Shown piece by piece: positions 40,074 to 60,241 of a stretch of 64,000 nt of DNA. A program made the position numbers and the translations under genes. Origin of the DNA: Anaerobium acetethylicum (GTDB taxonomy: Bacteria; Bacillota; Clostridia; Lachnospirales; Lachnospiraceae); contig NZ_FMKA01000008.1 of assembly GCF_900096945.1 (NCBI RefSeq), positions 1-64,000 on the forward strand, given 5' to 3'. The first letter of the stretch is position 1. Each line of letters opens with the position of its first letter. Below the pieces are notes generated by a model, which saw nothing but the letters and a program-made list of their open reading frames with translations, made no database searches and had not been told where the DNA came from.

Positions 40074-41837
40074 CTAATTCAGGAACTCAATATTTTTGAG
40101 AGCTTCGGACTCGCCGTTCTTATATCCGATATTCCGGCTGATAATGAGCGCTTCATTATAGAAGTGAAGCGCCTGTTCGCAGTCTCCTTTGTCCTTATAG
40201 ATCTTCCCGAGCATCATCAGAGTGCTTGTTTTGTTTTTCTGGCTCCCCGCATCTTCCTGTATGGAAAGCGCCTTTTTAAAATAGATAAGTGCCTCGTCCG
40301 GCATATTTTTCTTAAGATAAATTTTGCCGGCAAGACACAGGGTATCGGCTTCGCCCTGCTTGTAATCGCATTCGGAATAAAGACCGATGCTTCTGTTACA
40401 ATACCCGAGAGCTATGTCCAGATCATTCTGCTTGAAAAACAGGCTGCCCAGATTGCTCAGCTGGGTGGCCTCTCCTATTTTATAGCTTGTTTCTTTGTAG
40501 ATGGCGAGGGCGTCTTTATAATATCCTGCAGCTCTGTCAAAATCACCTTTATCGGAAAAAATGTTTCCGATCATACCGAGAGCGTTTGCCTGTCCCTGTT
40601 TGTAGTTGATGCGCATGTGAAGTGCGAGGGCAGAATCGCAGAATTCCAGTGATTTGTCCAAATCGCCTTTCAATCGGTGGCTTGAGCCGAGATTCAGCAG
40701 CTGGTTTGCCTCCCCCTGTATGCCGCCGATTTCGTGGTTGATTTCAACCGATTTTGTAAAGTAGCTGGTTGCCTCGTCGTAATTTTCCTTTGAGAGATAC
40801 AGGTAGCCGATGTTTGCCAGGGTGTTCGCTTCGCCCTGACGGTTTCCGTTTTCGCGGTTCATCCGGAGGGTTTCCAACTGATATTTCAATTCTTCGCCCT
40901 GCTTCATGTGGAAAAAGCTTTCATAAAGTGCCGGATTCAGTTTCCCCATTTTTTCGATTAGCTGGTCGACTATGGTGCTGTTCTGGATATCCGGGTCGAT
41001 ATCGGACAGAATTTCCATGAGGTTTTCCGGTTTGTTATACCGGGTGTATTTCAGGCAGTTGTAAAGCAGATCCACTCGGCCTAAAATGGCCTCACTGTTG
41101 GGATTATCTGATGCAGATCCCAGCCTGTTATAGAGGAACATTGCAAGCTCGTAATGGTTGTTGAATTCCTGACCAGCCTGGCTTACCCTGTTCTTTACGG
41201 CCTTCTGAAGCCGTTCAAGGGCGATTTCGCCTGCCAGAATCAGGCCGTTCAGTTCATCCAGTATCTGATATTCTTCATAGGACAACTCACCGCTGAAAGG
41301 CTTGTATACCAGGTCATGTTCGACTTCGGCCCAGGCATGCATCAGGGCGGAGGCAATCTGGATTTCGATGATCGTATTGGAATATTTCATCAGATCTCCC
41401 GACAGGTCGCTTTCTTTCAGATAAACTCTGTAATGAGTGGCCCAATAGCCGGAAAAGCGTTTTTTGTATTCCTTTCCCTGATCTTCTTTGTATTTCGAAA
41501 ATTCAGGAAATACCTTGCATTCGATTATCTGGAAAGTAGATTCGATGAGATTCTGGACTTTCTTAAGGTCGCCAGGGAAATAAAGCGCTATCCTGACGCC
41601 GGCCAGATCAATAATATCCTCAGTGATATCCTCGAGGGAGCAGTAGTTCTTTTTTTTGCTTCTTTTTTCGAGTTTATCCCTGAGCCGTTCCACTTTTTTT
41701 GCACGGCTTGTTACAATTCCGCGGATACCCATCTGCTCCATATTGGTTTCACATATCTGGGCACATATCTTGGCGCTTTCCCTGTAGAAATCCGCCTTCT
41801 TTGTATAGTAATCTAAAAATTTTTCAATGATTGACAT
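40074..41837 (-). CDS. RelA/SpoT synthetase-domain protein fused to TPR repeats
   Basis: A 587-aa protein. The N-terminal 1-240 matches small alarmone synthetases. SRAKKVERLRDKLEKR is the ATP-binding basic stretch. DIIDLAGVRIALYF carries the catalytic Asp region, YWATHYRVYL corresponds to the G-loop, and EIQIASALMHAWAEVEHDLVYKP holds the conserved Glu. No HD hydrolase domain, TGS or ACT is present. Residues about 320-585 hold six or seven tetratricopeptide repeats of roughly 40 residues, each with an (A/Q)NxLxxLGxxY-like core. It should make (p)ppGpp or a related product, with the TPR part as a partner-binding or control module. AAGGGATGATTACCA precedes ATG 41837. It is convergent with the regulator gene at 40056. 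Confidence 0.85.
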   Translation of the reverse strand: MSIIEKFLDYYTKKADFYRESAKICAQICETNMEQMGIRGIVTSRAKKVERLRDKLEKRSKKKNYCSLEDITEDIIDLAGVRIALYFPGDLKKVQNLIESTFQIIECKVFPEFSKYKEDQGKEYKKRFSGYWATHYRVYLKESDLSGDLMKYSNTIIEIQIASALMHAWAEVEHDLVYKPFSGELSYEEYQILDELNGLILAGEIALERLQKAVKNRVSQAGQEFNNHYELAMFLYNRLGSASDNPNSEAILGRVDLLYNCLKYTRYNKPENLMEILSDIDPDIQNSTIVDQLIEKMGKLNPALYESFFHMKQGEELKYQLETLRMNRENGNRQGEANTLANIGYLYLSKENYDEATSYFTKSVEINHEIGGIQGEANQLLNLGSSHRLKGDLDKSLEFCDSALALHMRINYKQGQANALGMIGNIFSDKGDFDRAAGYYKDALAIYKETSYKIGEATQLSNLGSLFFKQNDLDIALGYCNRSIGLYSECDYKQGEADTLCLAGKIYLKKNMPDEALIYFKKALSIQEDAGSQKNKTSTLMMLGKIYKDKGDCEQALHFYNEALIISRNIGYKNGESEALKNIEFLN

Positions 41838-52334: not shown

Positions 52335-53018
52335 ATGAGAACGAAAATGTCTAATATATTATGGGGAATCGCATTTATTGTAGTGGGTATCGGTTTTGCG
52401 GGAAATGCCCTTGAATTATGGGATTTCAGATTGTTTTTTGCAGGCTGGTGGACGTTGTTCATCATTGTGCCCTGCTGTATCAGCCTGGTACAGAATGGTC
52501 CGAAAACATCAACGGTAGTTGGAATCGTCCTCGGTGTGCTGATGCTTATGGCGGCACAGGGAATCGTGAACTGGGACATCATAGGAGCCATGATAGTTCC
52601 TGTTATTTTCGTCATAATCGGACTGGGATTCATTTTCAGGAGCACCGGAAAAAGGAATCAGATACCGCCAAATGTGGCGTCGCATTTTGAACAGGCTGAT
52701 TCAGAGCTTACAGCGGTATTTGGAGAAAGAAAGGCCAATTTCCGCAACCAGCAGTTCAACGGCGCTGACATCAATGCGATTTTTGGCGGTGTGACTCTGG
52801 ATCTGAGGGAAGCGGTGATTGACCATGATGTGCTGATCCATGCAACTGCCATTTTTGGGGGCGCAGATATCTTCGTGCCGGCAAATGTGAAGGTGAAGGT
52901 TTCGTCAGTACCAGTTTTTGGGGGCGTATCCAACAAATCAATGGCTTCTATCGAGCCGTCAGCACCGACGGTCTTCGTGAATGCCACATGCATGTTTGGG
53001 GGGATTGATATAAAATGA
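52335..53018 (+). CDS. LiaF-like membrane protein
   Basis: A 227-aa protein. Residues 1-105 hold four hydrophobic segments, two per repeated unit. Residues 125-227 form the LiaF-type C-terminal beta region (AVFGERKANF, INAIFGGVTLDLREAVI, ATAIFGGADIFVPANVKVKV, CMFGGIDIK). LiaF inhibits the LiaRS envelope-stress system in Bacillus, but no liaRS genes are seen here. The ATGA overlap with the next gene indicates coupling. The leader carries a decayed family D end. Confidence 0.85.
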   Translation: MRTKMSNILWGIAFIVVGIGFAGNALELWDFRLFFAGWWTLFIIVPCCISLVQNGPKTSTVVGIVLGVLMLMAAQGIVNWDIIGAMIVPVIFVIIGLGFIFRSTGKRNQIPPNVASHFEQADSELTAVFGERKANFRNQQFNGADINAIFGGVTLDLREAVIDHDVLIHATAIFGGADIFVPANVKVKVSSVPVFGGVSNKSMASIEPSAPTVFVNATCMFGGIDIK

Positions 53019-53869
53019 CCGGTTTCCAGAAAGCAATCAAGGTAGTAGCAATCGTATTTGCAATTTCACTTACAGCCACCATCATTGGCGGCATTGTGAA
53101 TCTTGCAGGATTCTTTATTAACGGTCTTACGGGCGGCGACGGAAAAACGACGGAAAATTTTTCAGAAGCATATGAAGAAGATGGAATCGAAGGCATAAAG
53201 ATTGAAAGTTCCTATGGCCGGCTTGTCATAAAATCCGGTGACGGCTTCCTTGTGGAAGCTGACGGAGCAAGCAGCAGATTTTCCAGCAGGGTTTCAAATT
53301 CAGGAATTCTTGTCATAACGAATACGGGAGGCAATTACAACTGGGCCGGAAAGTTTTTCGGAGGCGATGATGAATTCAAGGATGCAGTAATCACCGTAAC
53401 AGTTCCTGAAAAGTTTGAAGTAGAAAGCCTGGAGATAGAGAACGGCTTTGGTGATCTGATCATGCAGGATGTCGCTTGCGGATTTTTGAAACTGAAGCTT
53501 GGCGCCGGAGACTGCGACGTCATAGGTGTAAAGAGTGGAAGGACAGATATTGATGCAGGTGTAGGCGAGCTTTCCTTTATCGATGTGGTTCTGGGAAATG
53601 TGAACCTGAACTGCGGCGTCGGCGACATATCAATTGAGGGCATTATGACCGGAGAAAACGACGTGGACTGCGGAGTCGGAGAAATCGATATCAGGATAGA
53701 AGGAAACCGCGAGGATTACGATATTTCCGTTGAGCGCGGAATCGGTGAGATTTATCTGGACGGTGAGAAGCAGGATGACATGAAGGCAGGCGATTCATCT
53801 GCAGAAAACACACTGAATATCAATGGAGGAATTGGAGAGGTCAGTGTAAAATTTACTGAAACAGAATAG
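53015..53869 (+). CDS. DUF4097-type (LiaG-like) beta-helix protein
   Basis: A 284-aa protein. It has one N-terminal membrane segment (about 8-32), then a repetitive extracytoplasmic beta-strand domain. Repeating units of the form D-x-G-V/I-G-x-I/L are visible (DIDAGVGELSF, NLNCGVGDISI, DVDCGVGEIDI, SVERGIGEIYL, NINGGIGEVSV), each about 18-20 residues. This is the DUF4097 adhesin-like fold seen in LiaG. It probably acts with the preceding LiaF-like protein at the membrane. Confidence 0.83.
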   Translation: MTGFQKAIKVVAIVFAISLTATIIGGIVNLAGFFINGLTGGDGKTTENFSEAYEEDGIEGIKIESSYGRLVIKSGDGFLVEADGASSRFSSRVSNSGILVITNTGGNYNWAGKFFGGDDEFKDAVITVTVPEKFEVESLEIENGFGDLIMQDVACGFLKLKLGAGDCDVIGVKSGRTDIDAGVGELSFIDVVLGNVNLNCGVGDISIEGIMTGENDVDCGVGEIDIRIEGNREDYDISVERGIGEIYLDGEKQDDMKAGDSSAENTLNINGGIGEVSVKFTETE

Positions 53870-55122: not shown

Positions 55123-55193
55123 CAGATTGCGTCTATCCGCTTTGACAGGTACACCAGCTACAAGGATGAAAGAACAGGAGGAGTAGGAACAGG

Positions 55194-57212
55194 ATGAGAA
55201 ACGGAACGGGAGCAGTTGAAATTTCTAAAGGCATATACTGGGTGGGAGGCAATCTTGAAGAGAATCTGCAGTGCAACCCTTATCTTATCGTTGACGGTGA
55301 TGAGGCGGTCCTGATAGATCCGGGGTCCGTGCTTGATTTCGAAGCGGTTTATGAAAATGTGTGCTCTGTTGTGCCCCTTGAAAAAATCAAATATGTGATT
55401 CTGCATCATCAGGATCCTGATTTCTGCGCTAGCGTTCCTCTATTTGAAGCAAAGGGCTGCCGCTTCCAGATCGTGACCCATTGGAGGACCAGCACGCTCC
55501 TTGTCTATTATGGGATAAAATCAGATTTCTACATTGTCAATAAGAACAGGTTCATGCTGACTCTGGCTTCCGGAAGAGTCCTGGAGTTTGTCCAGACGCC
55601 GTATCTGCATTTTGCAGGATCTATTGCGACTTATGACAGGCAGTCAGGGACTCTTTTTTCAAGCGATCTTTTTGGTGCTTTTTCAAAAAGCTGGAGCCTG
55701 TATGCGGGCGATGATTATGTCGAAGGCATGAAAGCTTTTCACGAGCACTATATGCCGTCGAACAGGATACTCAGGCCCGTCATGTCTATGATGATGGAGA
55801 TGGAACTCAATATGATAGCGCCACAGCACGGCTCCATCATTAACAGGGATGTGAAGAAGTACATCAGGATTCTGCGGGATCTTGACTGCGGAAGCTTACT
55901 GGATCCGATTAAAAAGGAGCTGACGGTTGCTGGGGGATACCATGCCATCTGCAGCGCAATCCTGATCAGATATGCATCCATCTACAGCAGGGAAGAGGTC
56001 CTCGAGATGACCAGGGAACTTGAAATGAGGGTGAATGAGAAGCTGGAGGTCATCGATTCCAATAACACTGGAGATGTGCTGCTGAACAGGATCTTTGAAA
56101 AAGTCCTGGCAAAAAATGGGCTTTCATGGCTAATTGTAATTGAGCCCTACATGAAGGCGCTTGCCAAAGAATATGATATCCAGATGCCGCCCGTATTCGA
56201 CAGCAACTTCAAGGCCAACGAGCAGAAGATGGAGAACCTTAACAAGGAAAACCAGCTTCTTAAGGAGGTAAATGACAGGCTGCAAGGCAGCCTCCATGAG
56301 GCTGAGGACAAGCTTACAAGATGTCCGGTGACGAAATTCTATAATTTTGAATTCCTCAAAAAGTATCTGACCCATGAAATCAGAGATCTGATTCTGCAGG
56401 AATCCCTGCAGAATCCAGGACTGATGATCATCAGAGTTGATAATATTTCGAAAATCAGTTATGAATACGGTGAAAGCGAAGTGGAGCAGGTTTACAGAAA
56501 TCTGGCCTATATGATTGAAGAAATGCAGAATGACCTTACAACCGATTTCAGGCTTCAGGATGGATCCTTTGCCCTGTACACCCCGCAGTCGGAGAAAGAA
56601 TCGTCGTTGAGATTTGCAGAGCAGATAAGGAACGCCGTTGCCTCATCGGAAAAATTCATTGAAAAGATAACTGTATCCATAGGGGTTGTATGTTTTGATG
56701 AGATGCGTGAGGAAATCAAATATGCAAACAATCCGGAGGCGTTGTTCTTCCGGGAAGCAGTAGCACGTGTGAGGCAGGCCGAAATCCTTGGCCGGAATAT
56801 TGTATGCGGCCATAAGGCGGATGCCTCCCTCATAACCAAGGGTGTAAATATACTTCTCGTGGATGAGGACACTGTGGTAATGGATGTCATTAAGAATCAG
56901 CTGGAAAATATGGGGTACGGCGTCTATACAGCCAACGACGGTTCTGAAGCCGTCGATCTTGCATCAAAGAAGAATGTAGACCTTATCATATCAGAAATCA
57001 TGCTGCCAAAAATGGATGGACTGCTGGTCCGGGAAAATCTCCTGGCCCAATCCCATACAAAGAACATTCCTTACGTGATAGTCTCCCATCTGAAAAGTGA
57101 AGACACCGTCAGGAGGGCTTTTGAACTTGAGGTAAGCCATTATCTCAAAAAACCATTCATGGTAACGGAACTTATGGGAATCGTGAAGAGAACCATTGCA
57201 AGGGAGCGCTAG
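55194..57212 (+). CDS. ODP-type diiron metallo-beta-lactamase domain + degenerate GGDEF + degenerate receiver
   Basis: A 672-aa cytosolic three-domain protein. Residues about 8-240 are a flavodiiron/ODP-like MBL domain with HHQDPD (H-x-D-x-D form), a His in VTHWRTS, Asp in SSDLFGAF and His in APQHGSII. This arrangement fits the oxygen-binding diiron protein branch. Residues about 340-380 form a coiled coil. Residues 385-545 are a GGDEF-like fold whose signature reads QDGSF (455-459), so cyclase activity is not expected. Residues 550-672 are a receiver whose phosphoacceptor is Glu601 (SEIMLPKMDG). It starts with ATG after ACAGGAGGAGTAGGAACAGG. The next gene, a large glycosyltransferase, starts 2 bp after its stop. 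Confidence 0.87.
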   Translation: MRNGTGAVEISKGIYWVGGNLEENLQCNPYLIVDGDEAVLIDPGSVLDFEAVYENVCSVVPLEKIKYVILHHQDPDFCASVPLFEAKGCRFQIVTHWRTSTLLVYYGIKSDFYIVNKNRFMLTLASGRVLEFVQTPYLHFAGSIATYDRQSGTLFSSDLFGAFSKSWSLYAGDDYVEGMKAFHEHYMPSNRILRPVMSMMMEMELNMIAPQHGSIINRDVKKYIRILRDLDCGSLLDPIKKELTVAGGYHAICSAILIRYASIYSREEVLEMTRELEMRVNEKLEVIDSNNTGDVLLNRIFEKVLAKNGLSWLIVIEPYMKALAKEYDIQMPPVFDSNFKANEQKMENLNKENQLLKEVNDRLQGSLHEAEDKLTRCPVTKFYNFEFLKKYLTHEIRDLILQESLQNPGLMIIRVDNISKISYEYGESEVEQVYRNLAYMIEEMQNDLTTDFRLQDGSFALYTPQSEKESSLRFAEQIRNAVASSEKFIEKITVSIGVVCFDEMREEIKYANNPEALFFREAVARVRQAEILGRNIVCGHKADASLITKGVNILLVDEDTVVMDVIKNQLENMGYGVYTANDGSEAVDLASKKNVDLIISEIMLPKMDGLLVRENLLAQSHTKNIPYVIVSHLKSEDTVRRAFELEVSHYLKKPFMVTELMGIVKRTIARER

Positions 57213-57214
57213 AA

Positions 57215-60200
57215 ATGGACCTGAATACTACTATATGGCTGAACATCGTAACTGTTATACTGTTAGCGGATGCTATGATTGCAGCAGCAATGATTATTAA
57301 TAAAGTTTATAAAAAGGGTAGGATGCAAACATTTGGTAAAAACAGGGAGTATATCCTTCGGGCTGTGTCAGAAAACCATGCGGAAGGAAGCAGAAAAATA
57401 CCCTTCAGCTTCTATGCAGAAATGAGGCAGTCCCTAAGGCTGGATGCTGAGAGCTGTGAAAAGATGAAGGGCCTGTTTGATATCAAAAAGGCTGAAAGAA
57501 AGGCGCTAAGGCGTGCGGAGAGTGTTTTCAGGACGACCAGGATAAGAGGAGTCGCGGAACTTGGGATGCTTGGAACCGAGAAAGCCAGGCATGCTTTAGA
57601 ACTAGGTCTGCTCAGGGAAAAGGATAGCAGCGTAAAACTCTATATGGCAAACTCGCTGTCAGAAATCGGGGACAGCAATTCCATTAGTGTAATGGTAGCT
57701 TCGCTGTTTAATGCGAACCGTTTTTACAGGGAAAAGGTGAATATGCTGATTGCCGGATTCGGGAGTGAGTTCAATGACTATCTCCCGACGATTATGACTG
57801 TCGACAGGGTTGAAATAGTCGAGCTGATCGTGGATTTTGCTTCCGGGCATTTTTCGGCGCTTGTAAAAGACTATCTGATTCAGCTTATTGATACGAGACA
57901 GGAGAAGCTGGACTGGTACAGCCGAATGTACGGCTCTGATGTCGATTGCTGCGGAAACTGCATCCATAGAAGTCTGATGGTAGGAAGCAGTTCAACAATC
58001 AAATGCAGGTACAAGGGAATCCGGCCAGGAAATTATGTGTGCAGGCGCCATACCCTGCTTCCGGTCAGTATCAATTCGGGGGAAAATTACAGACAGGTGG
58101 TCTACAAGGCCTGCAGAATTCTTGCAGAATATTATCCGGCATTTCTGGACGATGAAAAGTATTTGAAATCAGCAGACCAAACCATCAAAAATATAGCCGT
58201 AGGAGCATTGGCGAACTACCGCTCAGAGGACAGGATCGTCAGGCTGATTGGCCTGCTTACGGAGGAAGAGACTTCCAGAAGTGCATCAAAGGCCATATCT
58301 GCAATTATTGAGAAGAACCCGGGCTATATCAATGCTGTTGCAGATGCACTTGCCGAAACAGAGAATATCGTGGCCAGAAGGGAACTTGCAAGGATTCTGG
58401 CTGGTAAAATAGAGTATTTTATTATGAAGCTGACAAAAGGGAACAAGGAAAAGGCCGAAAAGATTATTTTTGAAGTTCTGAAGCTTGGAAGAAGCAGTGA
58501 AATCATTGATTTCCTGAATAAAAATAAAAATTTGGATATTGAAGCCGAGCTGATCAGAATTGTCCGGAAGGCCTCAGAAGATCTGCCGGAACTCGAACAT
58601 ACCCTGTCCATCTATCTGAACAGAGTGCTTCTTGAAAAGTGCGGCATTATCCCGTACATGGTTGAAACTGAGAAAAAGGAAGAAAAGAAGGATAGGAATC
58701 TGACTACTTATCTTGTTGAATTGCTGGTAGTCATGACTGCCGGGCCCTTTTTAATCTATGCAGTCAGGCATATGGATACACTGCGCACGCTTCCCCTGGA
58801 CGATCAGATCCGGCATTTTGTCAGGGATTTCAACTATGGTTTTGTGTTCTACTCCGCAGCTATTAATATCGCTTATCTGATGCTGCTGCTGTTTTCCTAT
58901 ATCAATGTGGTAAAGCAGAAGAGGCTCCAGGCAGTAAAAGATGTTTCGATGCTTTTTAAGAAGAAGATGCTTCCTTCCGTGTCTATCATTGCACCGGCAT
59001 ATAACGAAGAGAAGACGATCATTGAGAGTTCAAATTCCCTTCTGAACCTCAAATATCCCGATTATGAACTGATTATTGTGAATGACGGATCGAAAGATGA
59101 TACTTTGCAGACCCTGATACGCTATTTCAATCTTATCAGGGTGGACTACATGTTTGAAAGCAGTCTGAAGACAAAGCCAGTCAGAGGTATATACAGGAAT
59201 CCTGCAAGGCCGGGATTCACTGTCGTGGATAAGGAAAACGGAGGAAAAGCGGATACGCTGAACGCTGGAATCAACATCTCGAGTAAAGAGTATTTCTGCG
59301 GCATAGATGCGGATTCCCTGATCGAGGAGGAAGCGCTCTTAAGACTTGCGGCGATGACCCTGGATGAGAACCAGGAGACACCGGCACTGGGAGGGAACAT
59401 TTTTCCTATAAACGGCTGCCAGGTCGAAAAAGGAAAGATCAATAAGACAGGGATTCCCCGGAACTGTCTTGCAAGAGTGCAGATGATGGAATATATCCGC
59501 TCTTTTATGGGTGGAAGGCTTGGATGGGCTTATCTGAACAGCCTGCTTATCATTTCGGGAGCCTTTGGCCTCTTCAGAAAAGACAGGGTTGTGGGGGTAG
59601 GTGGATATCTGACAAGCAGTGAGAGGTATGAAAAGGATACGGTTGGCGAGGATATGGAACTTGTCGTGCGTATTGTCAGGTCGATCAGGGAGCTGGGCGG
59701 AAGCTACAGGATATGCTACGCATATAATGCAAACTGCTGGACCGAAGTACCTGAAGAGATCGGAGTGCTGAGAAAGCAGAGATACCGCTGGCATAAGGGA
59801 CTGATCGACATCCTGTATTTTCATAAGGAAATGCTGTTCAATCCCGATTATGGAAGGGCTGGAATCATGGCCATGCCGTATTTCTTTATTTTTGAAATGG
59901 CCGGGCCCCTGATTGAAATGGGCGGATATTTTATGGCAATAGCAGCATTTTTCCTTGGGATGATGAACTATGAGATTGCCCTGCTGCTGTTTGTTACAAC
60001 CATTCTTATGGGGACTCTCGTATCCATGTCTTCGCTTATGATTTCAGAAAAGGGAGCTGCGTATTTTACAGTGAAAGAAGTGCTGGTACTTGCGGGATAT
60101 GCAATAGCTGAAAATTTTGGGATAAGGCAGATACTCAGCGTATGGCGCGTGGGAGCATTTTTTGAGATGTTCAGAAGCACAGGAGGGTGGAATAAGGCAG

Positions 60201-60241
60201 AACGTAAGGGGTTTTCAAGCGCTCAGACTGCCGACAGATAG
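57215..60241 (+). CDS. HEAT-repeat / family 2 glycosyltransferase membrane protein
   Basis: A 1008-aa protein. One N-terminal membrane segment (about 8-28) is followed by a helical HEAT-repeat region (about 90-480). That region is interrupted by a cysteine cluster CCGNC ... KC ... VC (about 246-280) that may bind a metal or iron-sulfur centre. Two membrane segments follow (about 505-575). Then comes a processive GT2 domain: SVSIIAPAYNEEKTI, VNDGSKDDT, DADS (about 695), GED and QRYRW (about 854-858), ending with three membrane segments. The GT2 part resembles cellulose, hyaluronan and poly-GlcNAc synthases. It should polymerise and export a glycan. The pairing with an ODP/GGDEF/REC protein suggests control by oxygen or redox state. 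Confidence 0.87.
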   Translation: MDLNTTIWLNIVTVILLADAMIAAAMIINKVYKKGRMQTFGKNREYILRAVSENHAEGSRKIPFSFYAEMRQSLRLDAESCEKMKGLFDIKKAERKALRRAESVFRTTRIRGVAELGMLGTEKARHALELGLLREKDSSVKLYMANSLSEIGDSNSISVMVASLFNANRFYREKVNMLIAGFGSEFNDYLPTIMTVDRVEIVELIVDFASGHFSALVKDYLIQLIDTRQEKLDWYSRMYGSDVDCCGNCIHRSLMVGSSSTIKCRYKGIRPGNYVCRRHTLLPVSINSGENYRQVVYKACRILAEYYPAFLDDEKYLKSADQTIKNIAVGALANYRSEDRIVRLIGLLTEEETSRSASKAISAIIEKNPGYINAVADALAETENIVARRELARILAGKIEYFIMKLTKGNKEKAEKIIFEVLKLGRSSEIIDFLNKNKNLDIEAELIRIVRKASEDLPELEHTLSIYLNRVLLEKCGIIPYMVETEKKEEKKDRNLTTYLVELLVVMTAGPFLIYAVRHMDTLRTLPLDDQIRHFVRDFNYGFVFYSAAINIAYLMLLLFSYINVVKQKRLQAVKDVSMLFKKKMLPSVSIIAPAYNEEKTIIESSNSLLNLKYPDYELIIVNDGSKDDTLQTLIRYFNLIRVDYMFESSLKTKPVRGIYRNPARPGFTVVDKENGGKADTLNAGINISSKEYFCGIDADSLIEEEALLRLAAMTLDENQETPALGGNIFPINGCQVEKGKINKTGIPRNCLARVQMMEYIRSFMGGRLGWAYLNSLLIISGAFGLFRKDRVVGVGGYLTSSERYEKDTVGEDMELVVRIVRSIRELGGSYRICYAYNANCWTEVPEEIGVLRKQRYRWHKGLIDILYFHKEMLFNPDYGRAGIMAMPYFFIFEMAGPLIEMGGYFMAIAAFFLGMMNYEIALLLFVTTILMGTLVSMSSLMISEKGAAYFTVKEVLVLAGYAIAENFGIRQILSVWRVGAFFEMFRSTGGWNKAERKGFSSAQTADR

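Follow-up and report, generated by a model that had tools for sequence, protein, structure and literature searches.

A conserved gene pair encoding a likely diiron sensor and a HEAT-repeat glycosyltransferase of the processive type in Anaerobium acetethylicum

Why should a gene for a likely oxygen or iron sensor lie directly in front of a gene for a membrane-bound polysaccharide synthase? The question is raised by two genes in a stretch of 64,000 nucleotides from Anaerobium acetethylicum (NZ_FMKA01000008.1, positions 1 to 64,000; contig C34 of a 4.6 Mb genome), hereafter called the window. Gene 1 encodes an oxygen-binding diiron (ODP) domain, a linker, a degenerate GGDEF domain and a receiver (REC) domain. 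Gene 2, which follows after a gap of 2 bp, encodes a HEAT-repeat region fused to a family 2 glycosyltransferase (GT2) (Table 1). A sequence-only reading of this locus had proposed a direct protein-protein switch that links oxygen or redox state to exopolysaccharide synthesis. Both open reading frames were found where that reading had placed them and their domains were recovered by Pfam. We conclude below that the gene pair is conserved as a unit, and we see about even chances that they form one redox-gated polysaccharide synthesis unit, in which an adaptor would act by contact and without cyclic di-GMP (c-di-GMP).

The co-occurrence of the two genes was surveyed in an order sample of 392 evenly drawn genomes, a class sample of 381 genomes and a phylum sample of 299 genomes, the last searched with gene 1 only. 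In the order sample, four genomes including that of the window had full-length synthase fusions, with two copies in one of them (G086), and full-length orthologues of gene 1 occurred in exactly the same places. In the class sample, both were present in the window genome, G701 and G660, and no further genome had either at full length. Thus the two genes always occurred together in these two samples, and neither sample contained a full-length partner without the other. The phylum sample added a full-length gene 1 in G933, and reading of its neighbourhood revealed the synthase gene with a 4-bp overlap. Five families thus yielded eight pairs. In each, the two genes adjoin and keep their order, with a 4-bp overlap at six junctions, a 1-bp gap at one and the 2-bp gap of the window. 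The proteins are 46-55% identical to those of the window, and the flanking genes differ at every locus, save that G231 and G086 C12, whose pairs are near-identical, have them partly in common. The layout is not due to chance, because all eight orthologous pairs are adjacent; the proposal thereby survived the check on which it had been staked, namely whether the orthologues are usually neighbours. Orthologues of the two genes are seldom found and have a scattered distribution over families, and the pairing is real.

The fused synthases formed a single clade (support 100/100) among relatives in which HEAT and GT2 are otherwise two genes. In trees of seven sequences for gene 1 and for gene 2, the window, G242 and G701 separated from the remaining four sequences (98/98 and 100/99), which is the deepest split of both trees. 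The tree of the pair is at odds with family membership, suggesting that the pair was transferred as a unit.

Gene 2 has the features of a processive GT2 enzyme (Pfam PF00535, E = 5e-20), in that the D, DxD, (T/G)ED and Q(Q/R)xRW motifs and transmembrane (TM) segments are all present; the GT2 aspartates and QRYRW are invariant in seven orthologues. Hydropathy indicated one N-terminal TM segment, two before the catalytic domain and several after it, and this arrangement suggests that the HEAT arm is cytoplasmic. The HEAT_2 match (4.9e-6) fell slightly under the Pfam cut-off, and the region matched alphaRep designed HEAT proteins at 2e-15 as a single sequence and at 3.6e-25 as a family profile. 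Its single-sequence AlphaFold model (pLDDT 43.9) was too poor except for noting helix content. A HEAT platform and the lack of PilZ, both claimed for the synthase, were thus confirmed, since no PilZ domain was found in gene 2 by the Pfam and NCBIfam scans; gene 2 is accordingly not of the BcsA type. The cysteine cluster in the HEAT region, a possible Zn or Fe-S site, is kept in five of the seven aligned orthologues and is not essential because it is deleted in the other two. The top NCBIfam models were PgaC/IcaA (7.8e-34; 117 bits against a cut-off of 422, short of a poly-GlcNAc synthase) and an XrtG-associated family. Both fell well under their cut-offs, and the polymer therefore cannot be named. 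E. coli YaiP is merely a remote GT2 relative (25%, 6e-13). The mixed-linkage glucan synthase RiGT2, a candidate for the nearest characterised enzyme, was discarded because it is of the BcsA type with PilZ. A scan of the host contigs with the synthase gave only two distant GT2 matches.

Gene 2 further belongs to a wider HEAT+GT2 module, in which a homologous GT2 is directly preceded by a HEAT part, either within one protein or as a neighbouring gene. Homology of the HEAT parts was weakly detectable (a local match, 84% in hhalign; three of seven fused N-termini at E < 1e-6). Clostridial relatives encode HEAT and GT2 in separate genes, which abut or overlap and often stand behind genes for VTC, DUF4956, CotH and a secreted protein of about 700 aa. 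Beyond clostridia, the module was found in rhizobia, Erythrobacter, Emticicia, Bacteroides, Deinococcus, Legionella, Planococcus and haloarchaea. It is widespread, already listed and uncharacterised: the same HEAT-GT2 order was listed in 2010 for C. perfringens NELoc-2, with the GT2 termed chitin synthase and, in the available part of that paper, no tested function for the locus (PMC2879425). A stand-alone receiver gene lies just upstream of HEAT+GT2 at six of ten annotated non-clostridial loci (Mesorhizobium, Erythrobacter, Salinirubellus, Haloarcula, Halosolutus and Emticicia; L130, L132, L133, L134, L136 and L137), and most of these receivers retain the phospho-acceptor Asp. The six are not independent cases because three are haloarchaea. 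Some receiver-bearing operons also carry YaiO-type outer-membrane proteins. The secreted protein of the module had no Pfam match and its profile weakly resembled TIM-barrel glycosidases (GH2 catalytic domain, 0.0012), so that the label TIM-barrel-like is tentative. It stands beside four of the eight pairs (G242, G231, G086 C12 and G701; the longer form in three), and a GH16 gene stands beside one pair. The secreted protein was not found beside the window pair, and one query gave no match in the host genome.

The GGDEF domain of gene 1 (PF00990, 5.5e-12, aa 378-506) was degenerate, as had been claimed. The signature is of the QDGSF or QGAAF type and the first Mg-binding Asp is absent in all orthologues, which thus lack the GG(D/E)EF motif and Mg-binding Asp of active diguanylate cyclases. 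Further, the RxxD I-site that marks PelD-type c-di-GMP receptors upstream of the GGDEF position was present in none of nine proteins (the eight ODP-type proteins and the G830 protein described below). Because all three features are absent, gene 1 most likely encodes a protein that neither makes nor binds c-di-GMP via the usual sites. The domain might still be a PelD-like nucleotide receptor that binds c-di-GMP or GTP, with the ODP domain only tuning the response. In P. aeruginosa and B. cereus, Pel synthesis is governed by degenerate GGDEF domains to which c-di-GMP binds (PMC7112168), and a REC-GGDEF gene whose motif is intact adjoins one orthologous pair. However, PelD binds through an intact RxxD I-site (PMC7112168), and in gene 1 the active-site residues are replaced too. 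We consider this receptor role unlikely.

The receiver domain (PF00072, 1.3e-21, aa 553-664) has Glu in place of the phospho-acceptor Asp in seven of the eight ODP-type proteins, that of the window included, which therefore lacks the phosphorylatable Asp of a phospho-acceptor response regulator. In most members the usual phosphorylation site is thus most likely unusable. The sequence-only reading had not mentioned this change. It is improbable, in our judgement, that the receiver is the real input of a classical two-component circuit, either phosphorylated or with Glu mimicking phosphorylation, while the ODP domain protects or scaffolds. Such a circuit would agree with the stand-alone receivers that precede HEAT+GT2 in six distant loci, with the Asp kept in G933 and with Lys653 and Ser631, which are invariant in seven orthologues. 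Against it, Glu also stands in the G830 protein, the G660 receiver has lost its acidic pair too, and no histidine kinase adjoins the pair in the window.

The ODP domain was the strongest match in gene 1 (PF19583, E = 8e-65; 218.8 bits against a cut-off of 27.2; aa 25-213), and phmmer matched it to the solved ODP 6qrq at 2.4e-33. The HQDPD motif, H139, D158 and H212 line up with 6qrq and 6qnm. Together with H72, D74 and D76 of that motif, these residues, which we take to be the diiron ligands from flavodiiron numbering, are invariant across seven aligned orthologues. Gene 1 is likely to encode an oxygen or iron sensor. A single-sequence AlphaFold model of the whole protein (pLDDT 35.5) was too poor to use. 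Since the domain is homologous to flavodiiron O2/nitric oxide (NO) reductases, it could instead be an enzyme removing O2, NO or peroxide, co-transcribed with the synthase in a joint oxygen-stress response of protective capsule and detoxification. The pair of G086 C6 (L092 9859-13087) would fit, with desulfoferrodoxin (superoxide reductase) and rubrerythrin genes just upstream on the same strand. Yet the domain scan found no electron-supplying flavodoxin or rubredoxin domain in the gene 1 protein, the position of the sixth flavodiiron His is Phe or Leu in the gene 1 proteins, and a strictly linked fusion to pseudo-GGDEF and REC would be unnecessary for an enzyme. An enzymatic role is accordingly quite unlikely.

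Among the nearest ODP relatives outside the gene 1 family, some are stand-alone genes away from any GT2 (G946, G845, G802, G834 and G970). A tblastn hit extending beyond the ODP genes (242 aa) of G946, G845 and G802 matched the first part of the gene 1 linker, and in G946 a separate open reading frame of 91-96 aa follows the ODP gene. Others of these relatives, likewise stand-alone genes but carrying a cysteine-rich insertion, lie directly before HD-GYP genes (L118 2874-4963 and L119 8418-10053) or, on a Fusobacteria plasmid (L135 3968-5487), before GGDEF pieces in which the GGEEF motif is intact. Thus ODPs may feed c-di-GMP enzymes elsewhere.

The best evidence found for the division of labour within gene 1 came from G830 (L156 9427-15770). 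Here a 736-aa protein has the same linker, degenerate GGDEF and Glu-receiver, lacks an ODP domain and ends in a DivIVA region, and its gene overlaps a 1378-aa HEAT-GT2 gene by 4 bp. By our reading of the sequence, this synthase also carries a fused segment, apparently extracellular, that is similar to the N-terminal part of the secreted protein in its longer form; a gene for the TIM-barrel-like secreted protein lies beside the pair in divergent orientation. The comparison therefore points to pseudo-GGDEF/REC as the constant partner of the synthase and its coupling part, and to ODP as the input, which looks swappable. Linkage without contact, in which the genes would have spread in one small island and be no more than co-expressed, as rare, patchy pairs with a tree off taxonomy (suggesting horizontal transfer) might imply, is very unlikely, since gene order, start-stop overlap and one-to-one occurrence persist at about 50% identity while other neighbours change, and G830 keeps the gene order despite a different sensor.

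We therefore return to the redox-gated unit. In this mechanism, the membrane GT2 domain would polymerise and export a beta-linked polymer, and the cytoplasmic HEAT arm would be a docking platform. The ODP domain of the soluble partner would bind a diiron centre and hence O2, possibly NO or iron status, and its conformational state would be relayed via the helical linker to the dead GGDEF domain and the mostly unphosphorylatable receiver. These two domains would touch the HEAT arm and so raise or lower synthase activity, and gene 1 itself would make no second messenger. A direct link independent of c-di-GMP is favoured because the GGDEF domain is without catalytic and I-site residues and the receiver has Glu in seven of eight proteins. 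The findings thus suggest that oxygen may switch surface-polymer synthesis by direct contact and not by the usual messenger.

Several observations weigh against this mechanism. Most clostridial HEAT+GT2 modules have neither an ODP nor an adjoining receiver gene. G933 retains the phospho-acceptor Asp, and therefore the capacity for phosphorylation is not lost in every member. Because a hybrid-kinase fragment and a gene for a REC-GGDEF protein of intact motif stand upstream of one pair, c-di-GMP may still act elsewhere in that circuit. The partnership exists in G830 without an ODP, so that oxygen need not be the general signal. Further, the window receiver was no closer to the stand-alone receivers linked to HEAT+GT2 (72 bits) than to ordinary receivers (75 bits), and its specific descent from the former was unsupported. 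On balance, the direct-switch idea appears reasonable and is strengthened by the present analysis: the two-gene unit is conserved and a c-di-GMP-independent link is favoured. More broadly, and tentatively, HEAT-arm synthases may be a modular class that docks interchangeable regulators, namely receivers or pseudo-GGDEF/receiver adaptors with ODP or DivIVA. The present branch, in strict anaerobes, would be oxygen-gated and free of c-di-GMP, with a diiron sensor acting via a doubly inactivated pseudo-cyclase/pseudo-receiver.

Features of the pair are listed in Table 1. The ribosome-binding site of gene 2 sits inside the end of gene 1, which suggests coupled translation. No convincing promoter or terminator was found at the window pair, where promoter-like sites were no commoner than in shuffled sequence and terminator-like sites only about 1 standard deviation above it. 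The pair is flanked by maf upstream and two HAD phosphatase-type genes downstream, neither kept beside the pair in other genomes. Elsewhere in the window, LiaF-like and DUF4097 genes (52335-53869, 4-bp overlap) are likely an envelope-stress pair, and a 587-aa protein (40074-41837, minus strand) has a long TPR run after its RelA/SpoT synthetase domain, an unusual layout for an alarmone synthetase.

Table 1. Features of the gene pair, by position in the window
Feature	Position	Strand	Basis or remark
Shine-Dalgarno-like AGGAGGAG of gene 1	55176..55183	+	Putative; sequence reading
Gene 1: ODP, helical linker, pseudo-GGDEF, receiver (672 aa)	55194..57212	+	No TM segment predicted
ODP domain	55266..55832	+	Pfam; aligns with solved ODPs 6qrq and 6qnm
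Linker, aa ~230-375	55881..56318	+	Helical in low-confidence model; weak
Degenerate GGDEF domain	56325..56711	+	QDGSF replaces GGDEF motif at 56556-56570; no RxxD I-site
REC domain	56850..57185	+	Phospho-acceptor position Glu601 (codon 56994-56996); Ser631 and Lys653 retained
Shine-Dalgarno-like AGGGAG within end of gene 1	57201..57206	+	Putative; sequence reading
Gene 2: TM, HEAT, GT2 processive synthase fusion (1008 aa)	57215..60241	+	
N-terminal TM segment, aa 3-32	57221..57310	+	Hydropathy
HEAT/alpha-solenoid region, aa ~95-480	57497..58654	+	Pfam and alphaRep matches; helix-only low-confidence model
Cysteine cluster CCxxC-x14-C-x11-C, aa 245-276, in HEAT region	57947..58042	+	Sequence
TM segments ahead of catalytic domain, aa 496-518 and 541-567	58700..58915	+	Hydropathy
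GT2 catalytic domain	58973..59797	+	NDG (D624), DAD (698-700), GED (811-813), QRYRW (855-859)
C-terminal membrane region, aa 898-944	59906..60046	+	Hydropathy

The usual view is that c-di-GMP controls processive synthases by way of PilZ or PelD-like receptors. If the proposed mechanism is true, signalling domains are reused here as pure protein adaptors, and oxygen exposure is tied directly to envelope polymer output in anaerobes. HEAT+GT2 modules from clostridia to haloarchaea have no product assigned in the literature found, and they appear to have receiver-type regulators in common. Our literature search, with subscription journals mostly outside it, found no description of an ODP or flavodiiron domain with GGDEF or of the HEAT-GT2 layout. 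The claim that no system with this layout had been described thus stood for the whole combination in the literature searched. It did not stand for the parts: HEAT+GT2 (PMC2879425) and signalling-fused ODPs (PMC7319448) are known, receiver genes recur beside HEAT+GT2, and G830 has the partnership without ODP. The novelty is limited accordingly, because the HEAT+GT2 module is widespread and the use of ODPs in signalling is known.

Among known systems, the GGDEF domain of hemerythrin-GGDEF cyclases is active, in contrast to the dead domain of gene 1. Like bacterial hemerythrin-domain sensors (reviewed in PMC9388753), gene 1 is predicted to be a non-heme diiron sensor of O2 or redox state in signalling; the hemerythrin fold is unrelated to the metallo-beta-lactamase fold of ODP. 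ODPs fused to signalling domains have been reported as a class (PMC7319448). Like the Treponema denticola ODP and other signalling ODPs (Muok 2019, cited in PMC7319448; PMC7666581), gene 1 has the HxDxD...H...D...H ligand pattern of solved ODPs. In contrast to T. denticola ODP, of which the output is a chemotaxis kinase, the proposed output is a polysaccharide synthase, and the domain is fused to a dead GGDEF and a receiver.

As in PelD, a dead GGDEF domain would be tied to post-translational control of exopolysaccharide (PMC7112168), a role proposed for gene 1 from its sequence. PelD differs in having an intact RxxD I-site that binds c-di-GMP, and the Pel machinery comprises glycosyltransferase genes (pelDEADAFG) different from the window synthase (PMC7112168). 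The synthase shares the processive motifs D, DxD, (T/G)ED and Q(R)xRW and the type of membrane topology with BcsA and RiGT2, but, unlike these PilZ-containing enzymes, has no PilZ, an N-terminal HEAT arm and no BcsB-like neighbour (PMC10374906). The closest likeness is in layout: as in NELoc-2-type modules, HEAT is directly upstream of a homologous GT2, and order and sizes are the same in clostridial loci. The window glycosyltransferase is 28-43% identical to those of the split modules. The order of NELoc-2 is VTC, DUF4956 ('tubulin/FtsZ'), CotH, a 685-aa protein, HEAT and GT2 (PMC2879425). Unlike NELoc-2, the window locus lacks VTC, DUF4956 and CotH, has HEAT and GT2 in one protein, and has gained the gene for the ODP-pseudo-GGDEF-REC protein.

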